A stretch of DNA of 64,000 nucleotides, from positions 54,315,880-54,379,879 of the forward strand of contig CP141132.1 of assembly GCA_035236585.1 (NCBI GenBank), read 5' to 3'. The translations under genes and the position numbers were made by a program. The notes below the pieces were generated by a model. It did not search any database, was not told the DNA's origin, and worked only from the letters and a program-made list of their open reading frames with translations. This stretch comes from Warburgia ugandensis. Its lineage: Eukaryota > Streptophyta > Magnoliopsida > Canellales > Canellaceae. Shown piece by piece: positions 1,530-64,000 of the stretch (position 1 is its first letter; every line of letters begins with the position of its first letter).

Positions 1530-2900
1530 AAGCAAGGGGTAAGAAGTCAAATTCCCAACCCCAAGGTATAGGATAAGGCCATCAGAGACTTCTATGCATC
1601 ATTCCAGTTGAATACTCCATCATGCATCACATTGCCACCCACCAATGCAAACCACTTTGAACTTAAACCTGGAGTTATACATTTACTCCCTTGCTTTTAT
1701 GGTTGATAAAGAGGGGATCCATATCTACATATTAAGCAATGCCTTGATATTTGTGTTATATTAAAATTCTAAAATGTTTCAAATGATTCTATTAGACTTA
1801 GATTGTTTCCCTTCTCATTGAGATAATAAGGCCAAAACATGGTTGAATTCTTTAGAGGTCAGTTCCATTGCCACATGGGACTAGTTGTCTAAAAAGTTTT
1901 TAGATAAATTCTTTCTTGTCTATAAGACTAATTCCCTTCGTGGGGAGATTATCAATTTCTAGCAAAAAGATGATGAGAAATATTATGAATGCTGGAAAAT
2001 GTGGAATGAATTCCTACGAAAGTTCCCTCACCATGGATCTGAAAAATGTAGCATGTTTAGTGCTTCTATGAGGCACTAACACCTCAAAATAGATAGATGG
2101 TAGAAGCAACTTGTGGAGGGGCCCTCATGTTGAAAAGTGAGATAGACGCTTGGGAATTTTTTGAGACCTTAGCTAAGAATTCCTATAATGAGATTATTCT
2201 AATAGGAGATGGGGAAATACTTAGCCTCAAAAGAAAGGAGGCATGTATAAAATAGGAGCGACCTCAGATATACCATATAAGCTCAACCCCATGGTTAAAT
2301 GATTGGGAAAGCTTGAAAATATTTTCCATGCCTTTATGGTTATCAATGCATCTATGAAACCTCTACATGAGTGTAGAGGTTTGTGCTATTTGTTCTAGCT
2401 TAGCACACTTAACCACAACTTGTCCATGTAATAAAGTGTACAATGAGTATCTTTTAGAAGAAGCGAATGCTCTAAACGCATATCACAACACAAGCAATAA
2501 TCCATACTCTAAGACCTATAATCCAAGATGGGCTAGGCATCCTAATTTTTCATGGTTTGAGAACAATTGCTAAGGAAGTACATCTATGAACTGCCCTACA
2601 CAAAACTTTCCTAGGACATCAGCTCCCAAGTAGCCACTTGGTTTTTAGTTTCCTCAACAACCAAAGAAATCACCAGTTGAGGAAACTTTGTAATTGTTTA
2701 TGGATAAAACTTTAAAAAAACTTGAGGAGAATATCAAGGCCTTATATAATTCCCAAAATGAGAGTAGGAAGGTCGCCAATGTTAGTTCCCAAGTGATTAC
2801 CAAATTAGAAATGCAAATGAGCTGGTTATCTGCTTCACTTAGTAATAGTGGAAAGGGACAATTTCCTAATCAACCAATTCCAAACCCTAGGGGCTAGTTT
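1530..2900 (+). mobile_element. A: gag fragment with CCHC zinc knuckle
   Basis: Athila-type Gag region. The first half (about 1560-2060) matches the Gag core that is better preserved in G at 61020-61556. A zinc knuckle CX2CX4HX4C is visible at 2382-2423 (Cys-Ala-Ile-Cys ... His ... Cys), followed by the lineage's typical Asn/Tyr-rich stretch with a YSKTYNP-like motif and HPNFSW near 2515-2560. This family's Gag packages element RNA into virus-like particles in the cytoplasm. The region has several breaks. Confidence 0.8.
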
Positions 2901-3959: not shown

Positions 3960-5400
3960 AATGGAACCTCTTCCTCCAAATTCTATCCATGTGCCTTCAA
4001 TAAAAAAACCACCTTCCTTAGTCATTAAGCCACTCCGAGAAAATCTAAAATATTCTTACTTAGGACCAAATGAATCATTCCTTGTAATTAAAGCTTCTGA
4101 TCTAGACCAAGAACAAGAAGGGAAGCTCCTTGATGTTTTGAGAAAACATAAGACATATTTAAGGTGGACCATAGAAGACATTAATGGGATTAGTTGTGTT
4201 GTGTGTATGCATAAAATTCACCTAGAAGAAAATGGTAGGCCATCTAAAGAAACATAGAGGAGGCTAAACCCGAATATGAAAGATGTAGTTAGAGACAAAG
4301 TGTTAAAACTCCTAGAAATTCAATGTCAAAGGAATCCATAATGAGGATAATGAGTTAGTACCCAATTGCATGACCAATGGGTGGAGAGTTTGTATAGATT
4401 ATCAAAAACTGAACTAAATATTGAGGAAAGACCACTTTCCTCTGTCCTCTATTGACCAAATGCTGGTCATAGTTATTACTACTTTCTTGATGGATACTCT
4501 AGCTATAACCAAATCTCCATAGCACCTAAAGACCAGGAGACTACTTTCACCTACCCATTTGGGACCTTCGCCTACAATCGTATGCCTTTTGGATTTTGTA
4601 ATACTTTAGCTACTTTTTGAAGGTGTATGTTGAGCATATTTTATGATATGGTGGAGAGGTTCTTATAAGGTTTATTGATGATTTTTAGTGTGTTCTTCTT
4701 CATTTGATGAATGCTTGCACCATTAAAACTTGTCCTTATGAGGTGTCAAGAATAGAATTTAAAGCTAAATTGAGAAAAATGTCATTTCATGGCTCAAAAT
4801 GGTATTGTTGTAGACCACATCATATCACATAATGGCATAGAAGTACACAAAGCCAAAGTGGATTTAATCACTACCCTCCTCCTCCAAGGATGGTGAAGGA
4901 AATCCACTCATTTTTAGGCCATGCTAGTTTTTATAGACGATTCATCAAAAACTTTGATAAAATTGCTAATTTCTTATGTAATTTACTTATGAAGGAGGCA
5001 ACTTTTGACTTTGATGATAATTGTATGAGAGCATTTGAGTGCTTAAAGGATGAATTAACTTCTATGCCTATTACTCAACCACCATAGTGGAGTGTACCAT
5101 TTGAAATAATGTGTGATGCTTCAGACTACAAGATCAGGGCTGTGTTGGGACAATGTATTGATAAGCTCCCCCATGTGATATATTATGCTAGCAAGACACT
5201 CAATAATGCTCAACTTAATTATTCCACTACAGAAAAAGAGTTGTTGGTAGTTGTTTTTGCCCTTTATTAGTTTAGATCTAAGATCATTGTATATTTTGAC
5301 CATGTAAGAGTTTGATTTAGAAATTAGGGATAAGAAAGGTTTCAAAAATATTGCAGCAAACTATTTATCCAAATTAGTTGTGGAGTCTACTAATGAGAAT
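3960..5400 (+). mobile_element. A: reverse transcriptase and RNase H fragments
   Basis: Athila-type Pol. The linker before RT is the 98-codon open frame at 3961-4257, with the lineage's 'YSYLGPNESFLVI' and 'HKIHLEEN' motifs. RT proper follows at about 4370-4750 with the 'DGYS-YNQI' strand, matching G's RT at 63900-64000. The RT connection and RNase H occupy about 4890-5400; the segment at 4890-5087 carries 'SFLGHASFYRRFIKNF', a standard gypsy RT/RNase H landmark. Several breaks. Confidence 0.8.
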
Positions 5401-5601: not shown

Positions 5602-5845
5602 TTAGGATATTCATACAAAATATGTCCCAGTAATATAGCCATCCCTACCCTCTCACATCAATCGTACGAGCCTCTTATCCATTGTCATTCAATCACAGTG
5701 AGGGAACAAGTCAAAATAGAAAAGCTCACATTGGGTTTAGGGATAATCAGGCTTGAATTGATGACTTCCACCACATCAAGGTGACACTCTACTGCTAAAT
5801 TATATCCCTACCTTGCATCCATTAAGAAATAGAAATGACTAACAT
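5602..5845 (-). other. Nuclear plastid DNA fragment (NUPT) carrying trnV-GAC
   Basis: About 245 bases match, from memory, the plastid inverted-repeat region around trnV-GAC near rrn16. They hold the complete tRNA-Val sequence plus flanking DNA (the 'catacaaaatatgt' block, a 'tcaatcacagtgagggaaca' block and a 'gaaatagaaatgacta' block). The gene reads on the minus strand. The fragment splits the integrase of A, whose motifs are recognisable on both sides. The left junction lies near an 'attaggatat' stretch that could serve either side; the right junction is next to a TA dinucleotide run. It probably entered as double-strand-break repair filler. Exact ends are uncertain by about 10 bases. Confidence 0.82.
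5738..5809 (-). pseudogene. trnV-GAC: Plastid-derived tRNA-Val(GAC) pseudogene
   Basis: Seventy-two positions align without gaps to the plastid tRNA-Val(GAC) sequence as I remember it. The acceptor, D, anticodon and T regions are all present, for example 'gtagagtgtcacctt' and 'ggtggaagtcatca' on the minus strand. The differences I can see are all C-to-T or G-to-A transitions, several at former CG sites, including one in the anticodon (GAC reads GAT). That is the expected decay of unexpressed methylated plastid DNA in the nucleus. It is not a working nuclear tRNA gene. Confidence 0.85.
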
Positions 5846-5849
5846 CACA

Positions 5850-5869
5850 ATATATATATATATATATAT
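5850..5869. repeat. (AT)n simple repeat
   Basis: A 20-base alternating AT run at the right border of the plastid fragment, just before the integrase sequence of A resumes. It may be a junction product or later slippage. Confidence 0.9.
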
Positions 5870-6594: not shown

Positions 6595-9048
6595 TGATAT
6601 ATGTTTTAATTTAACTTGTAAGTGCATGAATCACTATAGTAATTGCATGCGAGGGAGGTTGATCCCACGAGAAATCTCACAAAAATATATGTTGGATGGA
6701 TCTCATTTAAACTATTTAGCCCAGCTAAAAGAATTGGATTTAACGAGATTAAGTCTTCAAACTAACATGGCAACCACAATTGCATGAAATTAGAAACATC
6801 TCTAAATCTAAACATGGAAACTATCTTAAAATTAATCTAACATGCAATTTAACCTAGACAATGATAATCTAATGCTTATACATGACCTAATAAAAGCATG
6901 TAATGTAAACCTAGTATGATATCCATGATTTAAATAGGGAAAATGCATGAAATAAAGTAATCTAAAGTGCATGAATGAGAAACAACGTAAGCTAACATTA
7001 ACTACATGAATGGAACTAAAATTAAAGCATGGGAATCTAATCTAAATCACACAATCATCTAAGGGGAAACACTTCAAAACTATGCACATGAACCATGGGT
7101 TTGTGCACATGGTTCAAGAATGATGTTTATATGAAATTAAATTACAACTAAGTCTAGGATGGTGTACATGGTATCTAATCATGGAAAACTAAATTAAACA
7201 GCCCTAAAAATCTATCTGTAAAGCAAGAAGAACATCCATAAACGTTGCACACTTAATCATGAAACAAACATCCATTGATTTGAATTAAAACAATTACAAG
7301 TGTAGTGTCCACCATTCTTGGATTCCAAAAACAACTCAAAATGCTTCTCTAATCATCCGAATAACAATCAATGGCAAGCACACATGTCTTCCAAAAAAGA
7401 TCTAAGGAAAATAGGATGAAAACAATGGAAAAGAAATAAGAAATGGCAAGGAACTTAAGGAGTATTAACACTAGGAACTTGATCTAAGAACTATACTCTC
7501 TTGGCTATCACTACAAGAGACTTATAGTCCTTAACTTTAAGGATCTAAGGTGTGAAACAAAAGAAAATAATCAAAGTAAGCTAGGAACAAAGCATTAACT
7601 TGTGGATCAAAGTAAACAATGAAACAAAAGGCAACAAACAAAGACCTAAGAGGAGAACTAACCTTAACTTCAAGAACATCAAAGAGAGAATCAACCAAAG
7701 GGAAAGAGGTGTGGAATGCTGGAGAAGATGGCTTCCAAGGAGGAGAAACCACATTGAGGACTTGGGAAGAAGAGAAGGGTGGAGACGCCTCCTTCTTAGG
7801 AGGGTGTGGTCTCCCCTTTGCTCATATTTTTTTTTCATGATGAAGCCCTTATACTCTTTTATATGGGTTGAATGCCTACTAAAACAAACCTAATAGGAGT
7901 GGGGTATATGAGTTTAGATAGTATGTGGCATGAAGGATTGGGCAATCAAATTAGTAACATAGGATAACTAAGAATGGAATCTAAGAGTGAGCAAGGTGGG
8001 ACACGATGGGAGGTGCCACCATTTTAGGAGAGGACATCTCTCCCTTGTAAAAATCATGGAGGGCTTATGGAATTGGAAAGAGCTGGAGATAAGGATGGAG
8101 AGAGAGGGAAAGAGAGAAAGGGATAAGGGTGGGGTGAAAATAGAAGGTGACTTGTTAACTAGATTAGGATTCTTAGAAAGGTGGAAGCTGGGTGTGACTT
8201 AGGAAGGTGGGAGGTGCCATCTTCTTAGGATGGTGCATCGCCCCCTTAAGAAATCATGGTGTGGAGTATGGTGAGGTGGAGAGAGAGAGAACAAGATGGG
8301 GAAAATGGGAAAAAAGAAAATAAAGTGGGTTCTTTCTATTGGTCCACATGCATGCTTACCCATTTTGATTTTTCACCCAAATATCCTCCAATTATCCTCT
8401 TAAAAAATCTCTTTTAGCTTAGAATAATTAAGTGAAATTATCCTCTAATAGTGGCTCTCTGTGTAGCATTGGCTTAAGTGGCTTGAATGGCTCTCTTTAA
8501 GGGCTCATGCCCTTAGCTTTAATAGCTTGGCTTGACTTCCTTATCTTGTCACCTTTTCTCATAGCTTATATGGCTAAGGTGTGGCTTGAATGGATCTTAT
8601 GCAATGGTGGTGGAAATACATGGCTTGTGCATGGGCCCATTTTAATCACCTTTAGCTTTTCCAAATGGATCCTTTGCTTGCCCTAGAGAGAATCTTGGAC
8701 CTTGATCTCCCCTTAGATTGATGATATTTAGACCTTGGCTTCCTCTGGTTTCCAAGTTAGCTTAGGAAACCTCATGAATGGCTTCAATTCTTATCTTTAT
8801 TAATCTCAGTCATTGGATCATCATCTTGATATCCTACAAAAGGTCAAAATCTCTAATTAAATCCTTAAAATTTAATTATCTAATATTAGCTCTGGATTAA
8901 CCTCTGAACCTATAAATTATCAAACTTTTGAATTATTAGGTCAGAAATGCATGTGTTATAAAAAATCCAGAAAAATAAAATATTATGCCTACCTTTTATA
9001 ACACATAGGTACTAATTGGGGGATTTTATACAAAATTAACAAAAATCA
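6595..9048 (-). mobile_element. B: 3' LTR
   Basis: Minus-strand Athila LTR of 2454 bases. Its LTR end is at 6595 (tgatatatg on the plus strand) and its LTR start at about 9048. It matches B's 5' LTR along its whole length. A likely TATA box lies at 7859-7866 on the minus strand (tataaaag). To the right it borders the element's own 3' noncoding DNA, which also matches the region left of A's 3' LTR (25080-25241). Open frames at 7537-7893 are chance frames in the LTR. Confidence 0.85.
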
Positions 9049-13404: not shown

Positions 13405-13431
13405 TGTGACTCTCCAACAGTGGCATCATAA
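13405..13431 (-). mobile_element. B: primer-binding site, tRNA-Asp type
   Basis: Directly inside the 5' LTR, the minus strand reads 'tgatgccactgttggagagtc'. It resembles the Athila site complementary to the 3' end of tRNA-Asp (TGGCGCCGTTGCCGGGGA), with decay. It fixes B's orientation and 5' LTR edge. Confidence 0.7.
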
Positions 13432-14959
13432 AACTTAATGCATGTTTTCATTTAACTCATAAGCGCATGAATTATTGTAGTAATTGCACGTGAGTGAAGT
13501 TGATCCCATAAGGAATCTCATGGAAATGTATATTGTATGGATCTCATTTAAACTATTTAGTCTAGCTAAAAGGATTGGATTTAACCTAGACTAAGGCTTT
13601 AAACTAACATGGAAACTAAAAAAGCATGAAATTAGAAACTTTCTAAATCTAAACATGGAAGCTATATTTAAATTAATTTAATGTGTAATTTAACCTAGAC
13701 AATGATAAACTAATACCTAAACATGTCCTAATAAAATCATGTAATATAACCTAACTTGATGTGCATGATTTAAACATGGAAAGTGCATGAAATAAAGTAA
13801 CCTAAGGTGCATGAATGAAATATGGATTTATTTCTAAACTCGGAAACAACCTAAGATAACATGAACTACATGAATTGAACTAGACTTAAAAGCATGGAGA
13901 TCTAGTCTAAATCAAGCAATCAGCTAAAGGGGAAACACTTCAAAATCATGCACATGAACCATGGGTTTGTTGGCTTAGTTCAAGAATGATGTGTATATGA
14001 AATTCAATTGAAACTAAGTCTAGGATTGTGTACATGGAACATAATCATGGAAAACTAACTTAAACAACCATGAAAAACTAATTTTAAATCAAGAAGAACA
14101 TCCATAGACATTGCACGCTTAATCATGAAACAAACTTCCATTGATTTGAATTAAAACAATTACAAATGTGTTGTGTACCCTTCTTGGATTCCAAAAACAA
14201 CTCAATACTCTTTTTAATCATCCAAACAATAATCAATGTAAGCACGCATGTATTCCAAAAGATATTTAAGGGAAATAAGATGAAAACAATGAAAAAGAAA
14301 TAAGAAATGTGTGACAACCCGGGTTTTATATGATGCAAATTTGATAAAAAGGCGAGATCTCTTGTTTTATAAATATGAAATGCATGAAAATCTGTTTGTC
14401 TTGGAAAACAATCTTTTGTATACGACCCCGTGTGTCAAAACACATTTTCCAATTATCTAGCCATGGAAAATTTTTAAATCAACATTAATCCCAAGAAAGT
14501 GTTAGTCACAGCCTCAGCTATAGAAAGTAACTACAATCAAGTAACACTGAAAGATAAGGTAGGGGTTTACTTACTTGCACTTACTCTGGGTGTCTTCTAT
14601 CATGAGCGTTCTTTGTCCTTAAGTGTTTACTTTGTGTGTGAAAAATGTTGAGAATTGGGTGAGTATATACTATACTCAGTAGGAGTCTATCACTACTAGT
14701 TTTAGAATGCATGAGATGTTTAAAATCATGTGCATGTCTGAACACTCAAGTTCAATATTGAGATTAAAAGCCATTGTTAAATTGAAATACTAAAGACTTA
14801 AAGAATCACACAAACCAAGTCGAAAGTGTAATGACCCTGAATTTTTGTAACTTATTAAGGCAAATTAATAAAGTTTGAATATTTAGAAGTGCAATTTTAG
14901 AATATTAGGTTATTGAAAATTTTCTTTTTATGAAAATTATATCATGAATTAAAACATAT

Positions 14960-15235
14960 ATATTATGGATGTACTTGGAAAACTGATCGAAACAACATTA
15001 AGTACGTTCAATTCTGAGTTAAAATGAACATTCCTTAATTTTCTCCATTTAGGGGCAAAATGGTAATTTTACCAATATTCCATATCTAAGAAATAAGACC
15101 TCAATATTCATGAAGTACATAGAAATACGATTCCAACGCCACTAAGTACGCTCAATTCCGAGTTCGGACAAATAATGCCTATTTTTCTCCAATTTTAGAG
15201 TTATAAGGGCAAAAACGTCTTTTTACATAAAAGTG
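14960..15235 (+). repeat. D: duplicated U3 block
   Basis: Two diverged copies, about 145 bases apart, each with 'taagtacg(t/c)tcaatt(c)', 'ttttctcca' and 'gggcaaaa' blocks followed by a 'ttttac' end. They lie 180-450 bases upstream of the TATA box, where LTR enhancers usually sit. An enhancer role is inferred only. Confidence 0.55.
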
Positions 15236-15412
15236 GGGCCCACAAAGTGGGCCAATGTTCTAGAAGCAACAATAATTGCTCAGTGCATTATTTCTGGTAG
15301 TGGAGAATGTAGTGGAGATTGTAGTGGAGAATGGAGAATGCACTTGTAATAAAAAAAATCTAAAGTAATAAAATATCTTATTAAAAGAAATGATAAAAAA
15401 TTCAAATTTGGC

Positions 15413-15420
15413 TATAAATA
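15413..15420 (+). promoter_or_regulatory. D: putative TATA box
   Basis: tataaata about 590 bases from the LTR start, downstream of the duplicated U3 block. Its position fits an LTR promoter; it is used here mainly to orient D. Confidence 0.5.
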
Positions 15421-17218
15421 TGTCCCAAAATTTTCCAAAAATTTTCACAACCTTAACCACGAAATTTCCAAATCTTCCTTGGAGTTTCAGCCCCAAATTC
15501 TCATTCATCCCTCCCCAATCTCTATTTTCTTATTTCTCTCTCCTCTTTCTAAGTGGAACAAGAGACTTAAATACAATTTGGCACTCCGTTCCAGGAAGAA
15601 TCTGATCAATTTCACCGTCCATAACCTCTTACACTACATTATACACAAAAGCCCCAAATCAATTTCAAGATCAACGGTTCCAACAGAAAACTACAAAAAG
15701 GTAGACAATCGGGCTATATTATCATCAACCGGTAATTCTCTCAAATTGAGCATCAAATATATGTTTTTTCTCCAATCAGGTAGGTGGAACTACTTCCCAT
15801 TCATATTTATTATGTTTTAGTGTAATTTTTATTTTTCTGTAATTTAATTTGAATGAAAAATGGTAAAAATAAAGTAAATACCAGCCCCTTCAATTTATGG
15901 TGATAGAGAGCTCAAATGGAAATTCTGAGTTTCCAATCAATCCAGAAGGGTCAAAAACCCTTAGTATACAATTTTCAAGAAAATCTAACAAGGTTTGGAC
16001 CCTCAATTGAGAGAGATTAATTCTGGTGGGCCCATATCAAATCTGGACCCTAGGAACGGTTGAAAACTTCAATTTAAGATTGTGGAGTCATATGAACTCC
16101 AAATTGAGATCAGAAAGAAGCTATGGAAAGCTTGTAATGTCTAGTTTCTAATGAAGTCATAATATTTCTAAAAATTATATCTGTATTTTTCTGTATTTTT
16201 TTAAATAAGTGTCCAATTTCTAAGATCTTCAAGATCTGAGGTGATCAGATCTTGGAAATTTATTTTAGTGATGATATAATAATGTAATAAAGTAATATCT
16301 ATGGTTAATTTGGACAGATCTTGGATAAAATAGGGGATCTACCCTTTATGGTAGAAAAACCGTAAAATAAAAAATAAAAAAATTACAAAAGGACCCACTT
16401 GATCAATGAGATCAAGTATGATCGAATCCTTGGGATGGATTAAAGGGATGATATTATGATGGAATCCAGTTAGATCATGGATGAAATGTGACAAAATCAA
16501 GTGGATATGATTTTTGGATCTTAATGGATTAAAAGCCCTAAAGGTAATTAAAACCCTTAATCTAAAGGAAAACACCTAAGATCTAATGGTTGGATCATAT
16601 TTAAAGGTTTATAATAATCTTAATAAAATTAGTTTAAATTGTCTTTTATTGGATATAGAAGTGTAAATGTGATTTATGTTCTAAGTTAGAAAGCATGATA
16701 GTGTAATCTTTAAATTTTAGTATGATATGCCCTAAACGAGTAATTTGTTAGTAGATTTGATTATCTTAGGATCATGTTAGTGTAAATTAGGATTTAAACA
16801 TGATTTCATTACGATAAAAGATGTGTTTCATAACTTAGGATCATGTTAGTTTTATTTCACTAGCTTAAGTTACATTCATAGGAAGAATGTTAGTATATAG
16901 TTGTTAAACTTATATTTGATTTATGCTTTCAAGTTGATGAATTACTTATTGTCTAAATTTATTCAATTGTTAAGTAATTGTTAAGATATAAGGAGCATAA
17001 ATCACCAAAAATGTAAACTAATGAAATATAGAAATTCATGGACAACTAAGATGAATGAATGATTGTGACTTAATAAGGGCTATAGTTAGTAGGACAATAT
17101 AAGGAATGATTTATCATTTCCTTGGCCCAAAAATAGGAAAATAATGAACATCCATGGATGACATTGTGCATATCCATGGAAATTAATTAAAATCAATTAG
17201 AGAAGGGACTTAAGGTAA

Positions 17219-51973: not shown

Positions 51974-54282
51974 CTTTGTGAGTTTTAAAAGAGTTCTTTG
52001 AGGAAGAATGTGAGAGTTCTCTTAAAGTGATTCTCTCTCCATTTTCTCTTATTTTCCTTTCTTTCATTTTCCTTCTAGCATTCATTTCCTCCCATCTCCT
52101 CTTCTATTGCATCCTTCAACTTCTCTTCCTCCCTTGTTATTAATCTTCCTGTATAAGTGATCCCACTTCTCTTCTCCTTGTAGTCTTCTAGCAGAGGTGC
52201 TTGTTGTCTACATGGAGTGGGATGCTAAGCTTCCCTTAAGTTTTTTTCTATTATTTTCACTACTTTATATTTCTTTTTCATTTTTATTTTTCTTAACCTT
52301 TCTTCTTAGGAAGACATCACCGTGCAAATGAAACCCCACTTCTTATCTCCCTATAACTTCTATTAGAGGTCCTCATTATCTATATGGAGTAAGATGCTCA
52401 AAAATTTTAAACATTTTGGCCAATGGGATACTTATCCTAAGCCTCGGTGATCTCTAGCCTATAGAAGGAAGAGGTGGGTTGAAGGGTGGGGTTATGTCTC
52501 GGAGAGAAGAAGGTCCTCTAAACCCATTGTGAGTTTATTTGAATAAGAATAGCCATCCAAGGATGAGAGCACTAGTTTCTTGAAGAGTGCTTGCTAGGAT
52601 GGTCCATGAGTCTCATTATTTTACTTGTTTTAACATTTTACATGAAAGTACACATCTAAAGATAGGGGAATTTCCTTCCAAAATTTTTCCCTAGAAAAAA
52701 ATGTTCCAAAATTAAAAGTTCTAAGAGCAATAATCCTAGCATGGTCCGTTGATGGATCATTCCAAAAGAAACACTTCCTTTTACAATTTTTAAAGTTTTA
52801 AGAACAAAGCTTAGGGAAGGAAAATATTCTCTCATCAACATTGGATGGTTTAGGAATATCTCTTAAGAAGCCAACCATGAGAATCCTATGATTGGGAACC
52901 TTTTTCATCAGGATCACATTTTTTTATTCTCTCTCCTTTTTTTAAGCATCCTAATCTAAAAATTTGCTTATAAGTGGTAAATATGCATTTCTAGTTTTTA
53001 TATTTTAGTTTCATGCCTCGATTTCTAGTTTAGGATTTCATCTTTTAATCATTACTTACATGTTTTATCTTTATGCTTTTTTTTAAAAAAAAGGAAAAAA
53101 ATAGTTTTCTAGTCTCATCACTTCTTTTATAGCATGTTTTCCAAACATTGTCTTAAGTTCTTGATTTAGAAATTTTTTTGGAATCTTTGGTGTAAAGATG
53201 TTTGTTTCTTTAGGTAAAAAAAATGTTAAAAAAGAAACAATATGTTTTCTTGTATTTTCAATGACTCCCTAGCTTCATAGCATTTTTTTATTTCTAGTTG
53301 TTATTAGAATCACCCTTTTCTAACATGATTTTGGTACATAGCCCTTAGTTTTATGATCCATGACTTTGTCCTAAGTCTTTGGTCAAAAAGCATCTTTTTA
53401 GTTGAAGGATTTTATCATAACTTTCCAACTTCTATTTTTGTTTTATATCATGTGTTTTTTTTTTCTAGGTCTCGATTCCATTTTTCTTGTGTTACTATTT
53501 CTCTATTTCTAAAAAATATGTGTTCAAAGCATATATCCAACTTTTAATAAGTTTCTAGCTTCTAGTTTATAAGAAAGAGCATGTTTCCACTTTTCCAATT
53601 GTGAAATTCCTAAAATGTTCACGGCTACTTTTGTTAAGAACAAGTTTTTGGCCTTTATAGCATTGATTCCATTCTTCATTTCATGTTCCATGCTTCATTT
53701 ATGTTTACTATAGTTCTAGTTTCTACATATTTTCTATGCTATTTCTAGTTCCTAGATAAATGTCATGTTTTATTTCCTAGTTCCTATTATGATCCATACC
53801 TACGTAGTGTCAATTTCCATGTGTAATTACTTTCTGTCATGTTCATTATTCAATGCATGTTTCTAGTTTTGCTTCTTGTCTTATATTTTAAGCTCTTAGT
53901 CATATTTAATAAATTTATTCCATGTTTGTAAAATTGTAGTTTAAGTGTTTGTTAAAGTACATGAATTATTGTGAGATGACATTACTTACTTTCTTTCATG
54001 ATTAAATTTGTGATTTCCTAACTTTAGAAATCATGACTCAACAATGGCTAAACCCTAAGTAGTTAGAGTACTAACAAAGAAAGCCAATGGAGCCTAGCTT
54101 TCTTACATTCTTGTCCATCTTTGATCTTGGAAATGTCAGGACTTTAGAATCTTTGGTTTAATAGACCTATTTGGGTTATTAGGGACCAAGGCCCTCCCTA
54201 CCTTAGGTAGTGACTCCACTCTCATAATCTACTTAGGTTCACATGAGCTTAGGATAGAAACTTACTGGAAATTATTAAAATA
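51974..54282. other. Unassigned repeat-like DNA
   Basis: About 2.3 kb with no coding motif. The T/C-rich start (52000-52140) and T-rich middle with many 'tttctagtt' repeats (52990-53930) resemble the U5 side of Athila LTRs. There is an internal diverged duplication: 52150-52236 and 52324-52410, both with 'ccccacttct', 'ctag(c/a)agaggt' and 'tggagt(g/a)(g/a)gatgct' blocks. 54000-54280 looks less repetitive. It may be an old LTR fragment plus flanking DNA; not resolved. Confidence 0.3.
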
Positions 54283-55050
54283 GATCAATTCAATCATAGT
54301 AACTTCTCCACAAGCTAGAAGCCTATTTCAAATCTCAATAAAATACCCATCCTTAAAAAAAATACATAATAATCATTCCAACATACAATAATCTTTCAAA
54401 CCTAGGGTAAGATAAGATTTTCTATAATATCCTCAATTTTTAACCCTAAATTAGTAATAAAACAAATTAATTAAATTAAAATTTTTATGCATATAATTTG
54501 GTTTTGAAACCACTAAATTTAGATAGTACACGTCGATAGATCAATTCAATCATAGTAACTTCTCCACAAGCTAGAAGCCTATTTCAAATCTCAATAAAAT
54601 ACCCATCCTTAAAAAAAATACACAATAATCATTCCAACATACAATAATCATTCAAACCTAGGGTAAGATAAGATTTTCTATAATATCCTCAATTTTTAAC
54701 CCTAAATTAGTAATAAAACAAATTAATTAAATTAAAAATTTTATACATAGAATTTGGTTTTGAAACCACTAAATTTAGAAAGTACACGTCGATAGATCAA
54801 TTCAATCATAGTAACTTCTCCACAACCTAGAAGCCTATTTCAAATCTCAATAAAATACCCATCCTTAAAAAAAATACATAATAATCATTCCAACATACAA
54901 TAATCTTTCAAACCTAGGGTAAGATAAGATTTTTTGTAATATCCTCAATTTTTAACCCTAAATTAGTAATAAAAAAAATTAATTAAATTAAAATTTTTAT
55001 GCATAGAATTTGGTTTTGAAACCACTAAAATTAGAAAGTACACATTGATA
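54283..55050. repeat. Three tandem copies of a 256-bp unit across an LTR edge
   Basis: Copies 54283-54538, 54539-54794 and 54795-55050 are nearly identical, each starting 'gatcaattcaatcatag' and ending 'tacacgtcgata' or a close variant. In the third copy the last 116 bases are the start of LTR M ('tgtaatatcctc' at 54935). The first two copies contain the same LTR start as 'tataatatcctc'. So the unit is 140 bases of flank plus 116 bases of LTR, tripled after M inserted. Confidence 0.92.
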
Positions 55051-57732
55051 GGAATTGAATGGTATAAATAAAGTAAAAAACAGGGTTTGGATGAGAGAGA
55101 TATGAACATTTTAAGATTAGAGGGCAATTTGGTAGTTTGGCAGGGACACGAATTAGTGGGGGTCATTTTGATAATGGCACCCCCTTTCCATCCCTAACCC
55201 ATAGTAGGTGGAGAGAGAGCAGTGATTTGCCTTGCCCTCCAAAGAAATCGGATCTACCAGTACATAAGCTTGTTTCCTTTCCATTCCCAGGCCAAACAAC
55301 CAGAGAAAAACCTTAGCCTTTCCCTTTGCATGTTGCTAAAACGAACAAAACTTTAAGCGCACTAGAGGACCCCGATCTCCCATCTGCAGCTCTAATCAGG
55401 TAAGCCCCACACTCTAACTTATTTTTCACTTTGTTTTTCAACTTTCCCCTCACAGATCCAGGCTAGATCTGAGCTGAATGACTGTTGGATGGCCTAGGAA
55501 GTCCAAACTGTGGAGCACGGTTAGACCCACATTAAGGACACCTCTAAGCCATTAAATGTGATCTTTGGACCCGAAAACCCTAGGAAAGGCAAAAATAGAT
55601 AGGAAATCAGAGCATCTAGGGCTCCGATCAAGCCAAAAGAAATTGGACGGCTTAGGCTTATCATTCCCCATGGACAATGCACCCAAGATGCACACAGTAC
55701 AAACCCCCTCCGGTGGTGCAAACAGGTGTAAAATCAGGTTTTGATTTTATTTTGATCTGAAATGGTTTTTCTAAGATTCTGGAGGGTACAGAAGCCCGAT
55801 CTTTGATTCGAAAGGTCTATTGGAATCATATCAATGTTTAGACTTGCTTTTAGCATTAGAATCTTGATCTAATCACTTGATCTAAGGATGATCTGACTGT
55901 CAGATCAACGTATAAACTTTAGATGCACACAAAAATGAGTAGATGAGCATGGGATAGAATTGATTAATAAAAATTAAGGTTGGGATTAAAGATCTAATCA
56001 TAAATAGAGATCTTAGAGGATTACATAGATTCTATTGAGATCGCTATAGATTCTATTGAGATAAAATAAATAACATAGAATAGTACTGTGATACTGACAA
56101 GTGCATCTGAGCATGCTAGCTAAGAGGATTACATGCTTGAGTTGGGTTATCTCTCATGAGGTAGGTGACTACATTTAATGTATATTTTGATTTCTAAAAC
56201 CTTACATTATCCTAGCATCATGGTAGATTGTGATTGATTGTCACTTATTTATTTAGTTTGAGATTTCGTAAGATTTAAGGTTTTATGCTATGATCAATAT
56301 GAGATTTCGATAGTGTATTGAATGGGTTTTCATGATTGACTGTTTTTATGGTATTGGTACCGCATATCTTATGTATTAGTAGTAATTACTTTCTTTATGG
56401 CATCACTGAGATTGGTGGGTTTTCATAAAATTGATGGTGGAGGCTTGGTGGCTAGTCCTTTGAGAGGCTAACCTTAGGATAAGGGGCATGCCTTGGGGAT
56501 TGTAGCCATGAATGCTCCTAGTTTTACAAGATATGCTATTTTTGTGTTTTGCAATTTATGACAGGTGCTCTCACCTGATGGATGTCATGTTAAGAAGGAG
56601 TAGGGCCGACCACCCAGCCTCTGAATTTGTGATGTGATTTATGATGTGATAGACATCTACCCATAGATGGATTTTGGTAGGGGTTTAGTAACATGGATAG
56701 TCCACACTACCGGTTCGGGCCTTTCCATGGGGACAGATGTTAAGTCTCCTATTATGGTGTTGACAGGGAGCAGCGGTGATTAATACCCTGGAGGAAATCC
56801 ATACTATTGTTTTGTATGCTTGCATGATGAGCATAGAGATGTTATTGTATAACTGGGTGTGACGACACTTAGAGGATTGATGTGAGTACTCATGATCTAT
56901 TATACTAGTGTATGGGATACTCATGGGACCCACATACGTTGGGGTGCCCTGTTTGTTATTGTATGCTCATTTACAATGGATCATATTCTATTTTACATCC
57001 ATGAGATCATCATGTTTTAAATCCATGAGGTGCATGTTTCATCACATATGATATTTTAAGACTATATTGTCATTACTTATGATACTTATATTTTCATGGA
57101 TAATTGGCCTACACATTATATCCACATTGTTATTCGTTTTTGTTTTCCCTTGTTATTACATTAAATGTTTATGTACCTACACAAGGAATAACTTGCTGAG
57201 GCATTGCTTTGTTTTGCAATGCCTTAGATATCAAGCGTGATAGTAGGAAGGGCAAGGTCGTGGAGGGACAGTGATAGCAGTGGTGACCACTTGATTTGGC
57301 TGATAGATAGCTCCACGTGAGTGATTAGATGGACTATAACTTGAACCTATTTTATGGACTATATATCTTCATTAGATGGATTTGATTATGACATTATATA
57401 TATTATAGACATGTCTTTAAGTATGGTGGAATATTATGATGGATAGACCTTGGGCCAGATTATTATACTTTTTGGATATTATTGTTTTAAAAATAAAGGC
57501 ATCGTGGATTTTGACATTGGATTTGATATGGGTATTGTCTTAAATTTATTACTGCGTACTTATATTTATCTTTTAATCGTGGTCGTGATGTTTTTGGAAA
57601 AAGGAGATAGCACTCGAAGGTTTTTTTTGTAAATGTTTTAATACAATAATTAGTAGAATCTTTTGATTTTGGGATCCCAATTATAATTATAATTATTATA
57701 AAAAAAAGTCATTAAAAATCTGAGGTGTTACA
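54935..57732 (+). mobile_element. M: chromovirus-type solo LTR
   Basis: 2798 bases, 'tgtaatatcctc' to 'gaggtgttaca'. It shares with I the 'gtcattttgataatggcacc' block near 55165-55185, the hairpin (57197-57226) and the 'tttgggatcccaattat' tail (57666-57682). It also holds the 'ggccgaccacccagcctc' block (56604-56621) seen in C, F and D. The flanks are ttttt on the left and ttttg on the right, a near but imperfect target duplication. No internal sequence. Confidence 0.78.
57197..57226 (+). other. M: LTR hairpin
   Basis: tgaggcattgc and gcaatgcctta around a tttgtttt loop, with one G-T pair. Preceded by 'acctacacaagga'. Counterpart of 41150-41179 in I. Confidence 0.75.
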
Positions 57733-59763
57733 TTTTGCTTCTACCCTTCTAATGGGTATATTAAATGCATATCCCTATATTTAGAAGGTTTTAACCCCAA
57801 AAATTACTTAATTATAACTAATTGGGGTTAACTCTATTGTTTTGTAGGTCCAGGGTACATATGTAAAAAATACACAAAATACCAATTTTACCTCAGAAGG
57901 ACCAGTTTAACATTTTAAGTAGCATGACAGATCACACACGCTATAAATGAAATCCTAGAGATTCAAAAGGATCATTGGGTGTCATTGTGGAAGTTAGAAT
58001 AGCCAAAAATCCTATATACAACTCCAACTCAAATGAGAGTGAGAAGGTGGCAATTTTCAAATTCAAGCACAATTTCACACATGTCAACACCTTTGCAAGG
58101 TTATAGAGGAAGCTTAATTCACAAACATCAAAATCATATACAATGAAAGTTTCTTAGGAAAAAAAAGAAGAATGGTATCACATGAAGACTTTTCACTTAT
58201 TTTCTCTCTCATACTCAACCAAAAGGATGAAGAATTAACCGATAAGAAGATGCCTTATCAAAACAAGATATTGAAGCACATTTGGTCCATAAGAGCATAT
58301 GAAGATCTACAAGAATCAAGTTAATTCATCTCAGGGCAATCCAATCCAACATTTGAGAAGTGAAGTATAAAGAAGGTTTACATGCCATAAATGGATCCCA
58401 TCCATTCAAGTAAGGGTAAGTATGATCCAAGTGTTAAGAATGAAGTATTAACAAGATCAAAGCCATGACCCATAAGCTACCAAGGTCCCTAGCTAAGGCA
58501 TTCATGTTGGAGGGTAGAGATACACCATGTGCCTATTTCTTGCTTCATCTCCAAAGGCTAGGAATGGGTGAGTCCTAATCAAGGGCCACTATATGGATTT
58601 TCTTTTTCTTTTTTTCTTCTATTTCATATTTAAGCAAGGAAGACTCATCTAAGGTTAAACTTCCTTAAAAATGAATAACCTCTAGTCACCTCTTTATCTA
58701 AACTCTTTAAAGTTGCTCTCTTTCTTTCAAGACTTTTTTGCTTAGGCAAAATGCAGTAACCTTTTATATTTCCTTTTTCATCCTTCTTCTTTATTTCTTG
58801 CGCGGTGATTAGGACTCTAGTTTTTTTGGTTGCACTAATACTTCATTCCTAAGGATCATTGGATGGGATTTGCCAATTTGTGGCATGTTGGGATACAGAG
58901 GATGAAAAGCTAAGTGGTAATTTAATGTATTTCGAGTTGAAGAGAAGTGTACATGCTCCTATTGAGTGACACAACATGTAGGCCCTACAGTGGAATTAAA
59001 GCCTGGATTTGGAGGACCTTTTTTATTTACATGTTTTCTTAACCTTGCTTATGTAACAATTCCTTATAATTTGGTCATTAATGAAATAGTTCCTTTTTCT
59101 TTGTTAATTTGTTCCTCACTTTAATTTCTTGTTTGTGTAGTTTTAGAAAGTTACTCTAATGTGTAGTTAGTTGTAGTTTAAATATTTTCCATAATTCTTA
59201 GCTTGCAAAGGCTATGAACTTAGATGTGGAGAGAAAATTGAAGAAATGACCTTAAATCTTTGTCTACTGACTTCTAATTAATAATTGTAGTTTTAAATAA
59301 TTTTCATTTCTATTTAATGGTAATTTTCAAAAATTTTCCTTTTTCTAGTTAGTTATAAATTTAGAAAATTTCATAGTTTAGTTCCTTACTTATCTAGATA
59401 GTTACCTAGTTTCTTTAATTACTTAATTTTTAATTTAGAGTTACTTTCTGATTTCGTTTACTTAAAAATTACCCTTCTCCTGAATGGTTTGGCTAGGTTT
59501 AATTAAGTTGATTTATGGGATCAACTATATTCTCCAATTCTATACTCCAATAGAGCTTTGCACTTATGGTATTATTTAAGACACATTAAGATTTTTGCCA
59601 TCATTGCCATGGGTCAAGCCAAGGTCTCCCACATGACAGGGAAGAATACTTACCATTATACTACAATGACCCATATAAAAGAATCTTCGTGGGATCGACC
59701 AATATTTGTTGATTCTCTACTCCAATAGAGATATGCACTTGCAATATTATTTAAGACACATCA
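57733..59763 (+). mobile_element. G: 5' LTR with a repeated 3' end
   Basis: About 2 kb, directly following LTR M; its first base is not certain. The LTR end occurs twice: a first end at about 59588 (acacatta) and a second at 59763 (acacatca). Both are preceded by 'tactccaatagag', 'gcactt' and 'tattatttaagacaca'. Between them lies the tRNA-Asp copy (59596-59670). Only the last 93 or so LTR bases are repeated (about 59671-59763). The block 'cgtgggatcgacc' (59688-59700) corresponds to the end of A's LTR. Confidence 0.75.
59596..59670 (-). pseudogene. Full-length tRNA-Asp(GTC) copy at the primer site of G
   Basis: Seventy-five minus-strand positions align without gaps to plant tRNA-Asp(GTC) plus CCA, as remembered: 'gtagtataatggtaagtatt' covers the D arm, the anticodon GTC lies at 59637-59635, and the 3' end falls exactly in the primer-binding site. 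I count about 19 differences, many C/T or G/A. All seven acceptor-stem pairs are kept, counting one G-T. Position 4-68 is A-T where the remembered tRNA has G-C. The last three bases read gca where mature tRNA has CCA, a tail not encoded in plant nuclear tRNA genes. The normal site contains only about 18 bases of tRNA complement, so the whole primer was probably reverse-transcribed into the element. T and anticodon stems are damaged; not a working tRNA gene. Confidence 0.85.
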
Positions 59764-59770
59764 ACTTTTT

Positions 59771-59788
59771 GCCACTATTGTAGGGGAC
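59771..59788 (+). mobile_element. G: second (outer) primer-binding site, tRNA-Asp type
   Basis: 'tgccactattgtagggga' (59770-59787) after the second LTR end and a short T-rich spacer. It resembles the Athila site TGGCGCCGTTGCCGGGGA with decay. The first site is the start of the tRNA copy at 59596, 'tgccatcattgccatggg'. Both share the unusual tgcca start. Confidence 0.7.
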
Positions 59789-59789
59789 T

Positions 59790-61019
59790 CCTAATGGAGA
59801 TTAATTAGATTTGGTTTGTAATGCTTTACCACTAGTCATAGATTTAGCATTGCATAGAGGATATTTTCTATTTTAGCAAACTTTCCTTATTCCTAATGAA
59901 GTTGATACCTTCCTTTTCTTTTTATATAGGAATTTGGATGTGAATAAAGCTTTGGAGGAAGACATTAGGATAGTTTCTAATTATATTTTTATTTGAGTGA
60001 ATTAGAGTGAGGATGAAGTTGTATATATATTTTTGTGCAATTCATTCATTTAAATTAAGGATAGTAATAATACAAGTCAAGGGTGGGCCATCCCAACTTG
60101 GAAGAGGAGGTGGCCTATAAATCGACCCACTCTCATAAGAGAAGACTATTTCCAAGATCTCTCTGCAAGACTATTCTTCCCTTCTTTCCAATTCCTAGAT
60201 TAAGTTGCATTGTTAACTTAGTTGCATTTGAATGGCAGTGTAGACGCATAGGAAGCATTTCCTTAATTGTTGCATTCTAGGGTTTGTATTAGATTTACTA
60301 TTTTTCTTCCATCATAGGGCACGTTCTTATATTTTCATCAAACTACATGGGATTGTGAGAAACTTTAGCAAGGGCATTTTATCCTCATAAGATCAAAGGT
60401 GACTTTCATCACCATTCCTAGGCCCACTTAAGTTAAATAGCACCTGATGTACCCCAACCTTCTAGCTTTTTATTTAAAAATGAATCTAGAAGAGACCTTA
60501 GTAGCCATTCATGCTCATAGGACCCTCTTGGAAGAAAGCAGCCTATTGCCACTCTAGTGGCCCCTATCTACTTGACTTCACTAGTACTTAAATGACTAGC
60601 TTTGCTAACACATACTATGACTTAGATCAATTATGGCTGACTGAGGAAGGTGTTAAGTGGTTAGTTTAAATTAGGATCTAACTAGTAAGCAGCAGGGTTA
60701 ATCCAAAATTGAGGAGGATCTACTTAGGGTTAGAAATAATGTAAAGACTTCTCCTAAAAAGAAATTCATGAAAACAAGCCTTTCAAATTATTACTTATGA
60801 TTAGGAATATTAGTTGTCCTCATTGTTTGTTGTTTGTTTCAACATTTAGGTCGCATATTCCAGTTTAGGTATCCCCTAGTCTAGAAAGAAAAAAAGAAGA
60901 AGAGTGTTTCATTGTCTACAACAACTTAGTTTCATTGTATACTAGTACACCATCTCTTAGCGTATGCGAGGTCATCAATCACTTAATCATCATCTAGTAC
61001 CTTTAGATATAGATATTGA
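59790..61019 (+). mobile_element. G: leader
   Basis: About 1.2 kb between primer site and gag with no protein motif. The part at 60500-60570 ('catgctcataggaccc', 'cactctagtggc') matches the leader module of A and B. The 65-codon frame at 60083-60280 is probably chance. Confidence 0.6.
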
Positions 61020-62600
61020 ATGATCTATATGAGGCAAGGCCAATGTACTCTAGTAGATCAAGAGATCCTTGCCATTGAAATGGCCAACGAGAAAGTAGAA
61101 GTAAAACTATTGAAGGATTACTCTACACGGGATCAATTCAACTCATCTTCATGCATAGGATTACCTCCTACAATTGCATATCGCTTTGAGTTGAAACCAA
61201 GGGTTATTCAGCTCCTACCTACATTTTATGGATTGGACAAGGAAGACCCATATCATCATGTAAAGGAATTTCTTGACATTGTGCAACTTTCAAATTCTTC
61301 AAATTCTCTAATGACTCTATTAGGTTGGCTATTTCAATTTTCTCTTAAGGACAAAGCCAAGGTATGGCTCAACTCTTTAGAAGTAGGGTCCATCACCACA
61401 TGGGATCAATTATCGAGAAAATTCCTAAACAAAATTTTCCCAGTCCATAAAACTAATGCCCTCAAGTGTGAAATTATAAATTTCCACCAAAAAGAAGGAG
61501 AGTGCTTCTATGAATGCTGGAAACATTGCAAGGACTTGCTTTTGAAATTTCCCTAGCATGGTTTTGAGAAGTGGCAGCAGGTTCGATATTTTTACAAAGG
61601 TTTGATATTGTAGAGCCAATGTATGATAGATGCCACTAGTATAAGGGTTTTCATGATTACAAGTGATGTGGAAGCCTAGAATTTCTTTGGAATACTTGCT
61701 AATAATTTCCAAAAATGGGATTACTCTACCCGCATGGAAAGAAGTTCATAACCACAAAGAAAAGGTGGAATATATGAAGTAGGGGTCATTCTAGATTTGC
61801 ATAACAAAATTTATATATGGACCCAAAAAGTTGAAAAAATAGATGATCTAACACAATAGTTTGATGCCTTCATGATGAGTAGACCACCTATGCAATTTCA
61901 AACTAAGGTTTGTACAAGCTATTCTAGTCCTAATCACTATGCTCCTTCATGTCCTATTCACTATGCTATGAACACATATCACTAACCTAGTAACAATAAC
62001 TATATTTTGAGACCCATAACCCTAGATGGACTAGCCATCCCAACTTTTCTTGGTCAAAGAATAATTACCAAGGGGTTCCATTGGGGAATCCACCTTAACA
62101 ACCTTTTATTAGGAACAATATGCCTTCACAAAAACTACCTCTAAAATTTCCACCCCAACCAAGGAAACAATCACTAGAGGAAACTCTGAACATCTTTATG
62201 TAAGAGAATGTTAAGTTTCAAAACAAGACAATTCACTTTCAGAATCAAACAGAGTAGACCTTGTAAGCCAACTCACAATCAATTGTGAAGTAGGAGTATC
62301 AAATGGGTTAGTACTCTGCTACTCTCCAACAGGGAAAAAAGGTAAGTTAAACAAGTTCTAAATCCCAAGGGCCAGTGTAAGAATTAGTTCCACACTATTT
62401 GATCAAGTCAAATCCATCAAAACCTTTAAGAATGGAAAACAAGTAGATAAGTAGGTAGATCATACTAAGCATACGCCACAACCTAAGGAGAAAGAAAAGC
62501 CTACCCAACCTCACAAAGGGAAAGAAAAAGTACAACCTACGTCTCTTCATTTGAACCCTTCCTGATATAGTTTGTCCTAAAGGCTCCATTTCCTCATAGA
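61020..62600 (+). mobile_element. G: gag
   Basis: The open stretch 61020-61556 (178 codons) holds the retrotransposon Gag core: 'GLDKEDPYHHVKEFLDI' (61231-61281), 'LKDKAKVWLNSLEVGSITTW' (61347-61406) and 'FHQKEGECFYECWKHCKDLL' (61483-61542). The end of gag follows to about 62600, with the zinc-knuckle region near 61915-61960 and Asn/Tyr-rich and Pro/Gln-rich stretches. It matches gag of A. Broken beyond 61556. Confidence 0.85.
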
Positions 62601-63419: not shown

Positions 63420-64000
63420 ACCTAAACCCATTACAAGAATGCTCAAGGTATTCATTTTTAGGTCCCTTTGAAACTTTGCCTATTATTATAGCCTCAGATC
63501 TAAATCAAGAATAGGAAGGTAAGCTGCTTAATGTACTCCAAGGACATGAGATAGCTATAGGGTGGCCCATCTTAGACATTAAAAGAATTAGCCCCACCAT
63601 TTGCATGCACCAGATTCATTTAGAGGAGAATGTTAAAACATTTTAGGAATCATAATGGTGGCTAAACTTTCACATGAAGAAGGTAGGTAGGGAAGAGGTC
63701 CTTAAGTTGTTAAGTGTAGGCATCATTTACCCCATCAGTGATAGTGCATGGGTTAGTCATGTTCAGGTTGTCCTTAAAGGTCTAGAGTAATGGTAGTTCA
63801 TAATGATGACAATGAATTAGTCTCTACTCATGTGACCACTGGATGGAGAGTTTGTATCGACTATCATAAGCTGAACTCGTTCATGAGGAAATACCATGTA
63901 ACTGGTCATGAATATTACTATTTCTTAGATGGATATTTTAGCTACAACCAAATTCCAATAGTATCAAAGGATCAAGAGAAGACTACTTTCACTTGTCGTT
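63420..64000 (+). mobile_element. G: RT linker and reverse transcriptase start
   Basis: The linker carries 'YSFLGPFETLPIIIASDLNQ' (63450-63509) and a 'HQIHLEEN' block (63609-63632), both matching A at 4045-4230. RT begins with a 'TGWRVCIDYHKLNS' block (63838-63880), then 'YYFLDGYFSYNQIPIVSKDQ' (63914-63973). The window ends inside RT. Broken. Confidence 0.85.

Follow-up and report, generated by a model that had tools for sequence, protein, structure and literature searches.

An old plant retrotransposon in the genome of Warburgia ugandensis carries a copy of a whole tRNA-Asp(GTC), wedged between two copies of the element's own LTR end. Its origin is best explained, by a wide margin, as reverse transcription of the primer, and the arrangement is most likely the fossil of an accident of reverse transcription. 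The DNA analysed (the window) comprises 64,000 nt of contig CP141132.1, positions 54,315,880-54,379,879 of the forward strand, and all positions given here are those of the window. The LTR-tRNA-LTR arrangement is known from one locus. Read along the plus strand, the locus consists of an LTR end, seven bases, the tRNA complement, the LTR end again, six bases, a second primer-binding site (PBS2), leader and gag, with the following features:

59516..59588, plus strand: first LTR end (U5 side; L1), from the local alignment of 59516-59606 with 59690-59780 and a CATTA/CATCA end
59589..59595, plus strand: 7-base spacer, read from the sequence, its LTR border being placed by the CATTA/CATCA ends
59596..59670, minus strand: whole tRNA-Asp(GTC) copy, 57/75 identical to the presumed plant cytosolic tRNA with CCA
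59596-59613: first primer-binding site (PBS1), within the tRNA copy
59671..59679, plus strand: junction stretch, U5 start or filler (the tRNA match ends at 59670 and the U5 model starts at 59680)
59680..59763, plus strand: second, partial LTR end (L2), weak at 59680-59689 and clear from 59690 onward
59764..59769, plus strand: 6-base spacer, read from the sequence
59770..59787, plus strand: second primer-binding site (PBS2), 12/18 to the tRNA-Asp complement
61020..61556, plus strand: gag fragment (PF03732, Retrotrans_gag; Pfam E 7.9e-10)
63778..63999, plus strand: presumed reverse transcriptase-like fragment, from its translation and a motif in it (0 Pfam families)

An earlier sequence-only reading had described an LTR end, a 7-base spacer, a 75-position complement of tRNA-Asp, the LTR end again and a second PBS, and these coordinates hold. 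Its figure of about 93 bases for the repeated LTR end is correct if the count runs from 59671 to 59763, but homology is weak at 59680 and clear only from 59690. The tRNA copy is, as that reading had it, colinear with the PBS and on the minus strand: it lies antisense behind an LTR end and a spacer, and its 75 positions align ungapped.

The reference for identifying the copy was the presumed sequence of plant cytosolic tRNA-Asp(GTC) with CCA. The minus strand of 59596-59670 aligns to it ungapped, with 57 of 75 positions identical, and the anticodon is GTC. The local alignment scores 64 (53/67 in the local part), as against a maximum of 20 for mononucleotide shuffles of the 106-base stretch around the copy (n=200) and 24 for the next best tRNA-Asp place in the window (300-base tiles, both strands). 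Twelve tRNAs were compared, two versions of plant cytosolic tRNA-Asp scoring 64 and 59 and human tRNA-Asp 42. Nine others, including chloroplast and E. coli tRNA-Asp, were rejected as source with scores of only 11-17. A better match to some other tRNA, the outcome that could have undone the original identification, was found nowhere among these twelve tRNAs, where the plant cytosolic tRNA-Asp is best at 64.

The Rfam tRNA model (positions 1-71) aligns to 59599-59670(-) with 23.7 bits (E 0.014 in a 501-base search; gathering score 29). The copy is absent from the matches of two whole-window Rfam searches, and ARAGORN reports 0 tRNAs. It is too worn for gene finders; the isoacceptor is nevertheless clear. 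The stems keep 4/4 pairs in the D, 4/5 in the anticodon, 3/5 in the T and 7/7 in the acceptor arm, and the fold is preserved no better than in shuffles (z -0.88; 42/200 at least as good). A 21-base core pattern in which the two known variant bases were set to N has one match in the window, with 0 mismatches, where 0.01 matches are expected with up to 3 mismatches.

No second tRNA copy follows PBS2 or the PBS of a neighbouring element at 13.4 kb, which speaks against ordinary leader sequence, a possibility that the first reading had itself raised. The tRNA body compared with the LTR upstream (57500-59595) scores 23, within the range of shuffles (null median 21, 95% 27). The tRNA match terminates exactly at the mature 5′ base (tRNA base 1), and the next 9-19 bases are ambiguous. 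With a PBS at one end and the mature 5′ base at the other, the copy has limits that would hardly be left by a tRNA gene, a SINE or a random insertion; the plus strand therefore most likely copied the entire primer, and the view of the copy as a record of the actual primer is upheld by the same colinearity and the same end point.

Of the reference's nine CpGs none is unaltered in the copy. CpG positions account for 11 of the 18 mismatches, 14 mismatches being transitions, and 7 of the 57 non-CpG sites differ (12%). The acceptor pair A4-T68 had been read as a hint of a variant tRNA; we have dropped this idea because both bases lie within a CpG of the reference and every one of these (9/9) has changed. 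By reasoning rather than computation, some half of the ways in which these two CpGs can decay leave a pair.

The CCA position, described before as decayed, does keep two of its three bases, but the change recurs elsewhere: a transversion at the first C (third base from the tRNA 3′ end) is found alike in PBS1, in PBS2 and in the PBS at 13.4 kb. Conversion from PBS2, or mismatch repair, may have given PBS1 element-derived first bases, and the CCA is therefore unusable as a sign of a mature tRNA. PBS1 has also diverged further than the tRNA body: at non-CpG sites 4/12 versus 3/45 (Fisher p 0.03), the excess being less clear over all sites (7/18 versus 11/57, p 0.12). This excess, together with the common CCA change, would be unexpected in a fresh copy of the primer unless there had been conversion from PBS2 or parallel mutation.

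In primer tRNAs the methylated adenine is A58 (standard numbering). The only T-to-C changes in the copy, at 59618 (linear position 53 in the tRNA) and 59613 (linear position 58), flank the place of this methylated adenine; they could be read-through errors, and two changes prove nothing.

The duplication of the LTR end is seen between 59537-59606 and 59712-59780, which are 82.9% identical over 70 bases (E 2e-14). The local alignment pairs 59516-59606 with 59690-59780, with poorer agreement at the upstream end. Counted from TGGGATC up to the spacer, 79 pairs are aligned, 63 alike and 16 different, with two gap columns. L1 and L2 are direct repeats 175 bases apart, and the LTR boundaries are based on the CATTA/CATCA-type ends, which are alike in L1, L2, E13 and E6. 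If L1 and L2 were initially identical, each copy has diverged by about 10%. This is roughly similar to the non-CpG divergence of the tRNA (12%) and compatible with a single event, the small numbers making for a weak test.

A U5 model built from four other LTR ends in the window (6.6, 13.4, 31.7 and 42.6 kb), with L1 and L2 left out, matches L2 from 59680 at 8.9 bits (E 0.082, under the inclusion threshold); L1 is absent from its matches. A model made from L1 and L2 finds the four other ends at E 0.0028 to 0.76, and once the 13.4 kb end is added the remaining three are found at 9e-12 to 1.3e-4. Bases of PBS2 that depart from the tRNA recur in the 13.4 kb element's PBS (at 13425), a comparison of two elements only; this would be expected if the PBS is inherited from the RNA, not from the tRNA. 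The 13.4 kb PBS itself agrees with the tRNA-Asp complement at 10/18 positions ungapped, and a gapped alignment with three extra bases is possible by eye.

The gag fragment, about 1.2 kb after PBS2, is the sole Pfam match among five pieces searched. Pfam assigns 0 families to the 74-aa piece at the window end, which is putatively reverse transcriptase-like by its motif; the DNA of 63799-63992 is 69.7% identical to 4337-4550. The latter belongs to a related copy at approximately 1.6-4.6 kb, which has four matching stretches (66-70%) and is followed by an RNase H domain at 5088-5267 (Pfam RT_RNaseH, the sole match among six pieces). A retrotransposon gag domain downstream of the PBS fits a presumed Ty3/gypsy LTR retrotransposon, and a tRNA-Asp PBS, which would suit the Athila lineage, is present as a full tRNA-Asp copy, with PBS2 alone agreeing at 12/18 positions. 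By analogy, the tRNA-Asp primer and short spacer would fit the Calypso/Diaspora lineage.

Several other features of the window were observed. Segments 6601-7445 and 13442-14309 (minus strand) are 82.8% alike and resemble the LTR pair of one element, and this minus-strand element (~6.6-14.3 kb) seems to have landed in pol of the element that begins near 1.6 kb. A search for the target-site duplication of the 6.6-13.4 kb element with five short strings (14300-15500) gave only one chance-like 5-base match after CA, and so established no duplication by which the LTR end could be fixed. Rfam snoR71 matches 61458-61564(-) with 42.0 bits (gathering score 40) and 1933-2039(-) with 26.4 bits, below that score. 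Both matches are antisense and correspond in position between two related elements, whose segments 61149-61583 and 1620-2057 align at 68%, and the first lies inside the gag piece; they look like retrotransposon gag, not snoRNA genes. A tRNA match at 5738-5809(-) (47.7 bits), behind the RNase H piece of another element, is presumably plastid trnV-GAC with plastid flanks (~5640-5850), and is probably inserted plastid DNA. A tandem repeat at 54280-55051, with a period of about 256 bases, is 97% alike and less diverged than the retrotransposon repeats around it.

We think it rather probable that the 75-base stretch is the reverse transcript of the element's own primer, formed when a plus strand extended through the tRNA was joined to an overrun minus strand. 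Plus-strand strong-stop DNA, begun at the polypurine tract, would have copied U3-R-U5 and continued through the entire tRNA, still attached to the minus strand, as far as the tRNA 5′ end. On its way it would have had to pass m1A58, the base that normally stops plus-strand copying. The minus strand, for its part, would have been continued beyond the PBS to copy U5 of the genomic RNA and possibly R as well, an overrun of which L2 would be the trace. The two overrun ends may then have been connected, whether through a template jump or end joining, rather than by pairing via R/U5 or the PBS, and the product, LTR - PBS - tRNA body - U5 end - PBS - leader - gag, would have been integrated. Judged by analogy, such whole-tRNA copying could have taken place in a Ty1/Ty3-like cycle. 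Of the two routes offered in the sequence-only reading, read-through followed by a switch into U5 and end joining, both remain, and it is the joining to an overrun minus strand that we favour.

Against this reading stand the single locus, the extra divergence of PBS1 with its shared CCA change, the poorer upstream agreement of L1 and L2, the stretch 59671-59679, which is doubtful as U5, and the LTR-end model, which finds L2 weakly and does not list L1. A more specific version is tentative and, in our estimate, rather unlikely: the junction would be a fossil of a Ty1/Ty3-style plus-strand cycle, in which a dead-end plus strand that included the complete primer was linked end to end with a minus strand extended up to the 5′ terminus of the genomic RNA. 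Transcription of the family would then begin at 59671, giving an R-U5 of about 93 bases, and both PBSs would have been usable. No conserved TATA box that would put the RNA start at 59671 was seen by eye in the LTR alignment.

The same order would result from a misplaced plus-strand transfer alone, in which the tRNA-extended strand jumped via microhomology into the U5 of an ordinary minus-strand template. Any minus strand reaching U5 would serve, and CCAT occurs near this place in two of the four other LTR ends (13.4 and 31.7 kb). The overlap at the junction is, however, at most 1-2 bases by eye, and the position of the switch is left without explanation; we give this account perhaps one chance in several. 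Less plausible is a history in two steps, with a tRNA-extended PBS arising first and a later duplication, unequal exchange or deletion placing the second LTR end beside it. Direct repeats 175 bases apart can be made by slippage or unequal exchange, but L2 begins only about 10-20 bases from the tRNA 5′ base, where a random breakpoint would rarely fall, and the upstream copy would still require full read-through of the tRNA.

It is very improbable that a tRNA-Asp gene, a pseudogene or a tRNA-derived SINE was inserted or recombined at the PBS. The whole tRNA is indeed present and the shared PBS bases could serve recombination, but the copy is exactly colinear with the PBS, is antisense as a primer copy must be, and ends at the mature 5′ base, leaving at most 9-19 bases for the flank of a tRNA gene or the tail of a SINE. 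No tRNA-unrelated SINE body or tail lies behind the tRNA part, LTR homology being back by 59680 (weak) or 59690 (clear). Chance resemblance or ordinary leader has a negligible probability and is considered refuted: the copy does fall below the Rfam gathering score and is missed by ARAGORN, but it scores 64 against a shuffle maximum of 20 (n=200) and a window runner-up of 24, its 21-base core pattern is unique in the window, and the sequences after PBS2 and the 13.4 kb PBS hold no tRNA copy.

Which tRNA primes a plant retrotransposon is generally deduced from some dozen complementary bases. With the entire tRNA copied, the isoacceptor itself can be named and is seen to be the cytosolic form. 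The copy under the favoured reading, that of a reverse-transcribed primer, further suggests that reverse transcriptase can pass modified bases which normally stop copying, and that such read-through products can reach the chromosome. If the same junction exists at other sites, the form with two PBSs was propagated.

Among the titles and abstract beginnings listed there is no report of a whole primer tRNA in a plant element, most subscription papers being outside this coverage. The tRNA-Asp patterns had 0 matches in viral and genome contig collections, which hold no plant genomes and have no bearing on sister copies; a gag search of the viral contigs, a collection likewise without plant genomes, gave 4 pattern matches and 0 relatives.

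The soybean elements Calypso and Diaspora have a tRNA-Asp PBS 5 bp after the LTR, and Diaspora has 873 bp before gag, a stretch said not to be shared by related elements (PMC1142308). The element described here resembles both in the identity of the primer and the short spacer, and Diaspora also in its long pre-gag stretch. It differs in that the soybean elements are described with a single PBS matching 18 bases, the tRNA body being unmentioned in the available part of that paper (PMC1142308).

In HIV-1, hairpin-induced tRNA-mediated recombination captured 63 nt of tRNA-Asp (Konstantinova 2006, via PMC12220202). There, as is presumed here, reverse transcriptase took up most of a tRNA at a template switch; the HIV-1 capture, however, lay in the nef region and replaced an engineered hairpin, rather than representing the primer at the PBS (PMC12220202).

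In Ty1 and Ty3 the first plus strand extends into the tRNA, dead-end plus strands are formed, the 3′ terminus of the minus strand holds R and U5, and the PBS is inherited from the RNA, not from the tRNA (PMC5371799). The earlier statement that only about 18 bases of the primer are copied fits HIV-1, but agrees less well with this description of the Ty1/Ty3 PBS. The tRNA copy of Ty1 and Ty3 is not inherited, whereas it has been retained here; whole-tRNA copying by Ty3 is not stated in the available part of that source (PMC5371799).

The HIV-1 plus-strand product P1 reaches the tRNA 5′ end with an unmodified primer, and is thus like the Warburgia product in the length of its read-through, the entire primer (PMC13191261). 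P1 is not among the products called active templates in the accessible text of that work, whereas here such a product would have been integrated.

In M-MuLV, a circular DNA clone carried a tRNA flanked by the terminal repeats (Colicelli and Goff 1986, via PMC12220202), explained there by a primer that remained attached and served as template. Both cases have a reverse-transcribed tRNA between retroviral ends. The M-MuLV molecule was circular and held tRNA-Gly, a spurious primer, with four 5′ bases missing (PMC12220202), whereas the Warburgia locus is an old chromosomal copy in which the primer expected from the PBS is complete to its 5′ base and is succeeded by part of U5 and another PBS. A tRNA between retroviral ends is already known from M-MuLV; what the present locus adds is the expected primer, 5′-complete and chromosomal, with a second U5-PBS.
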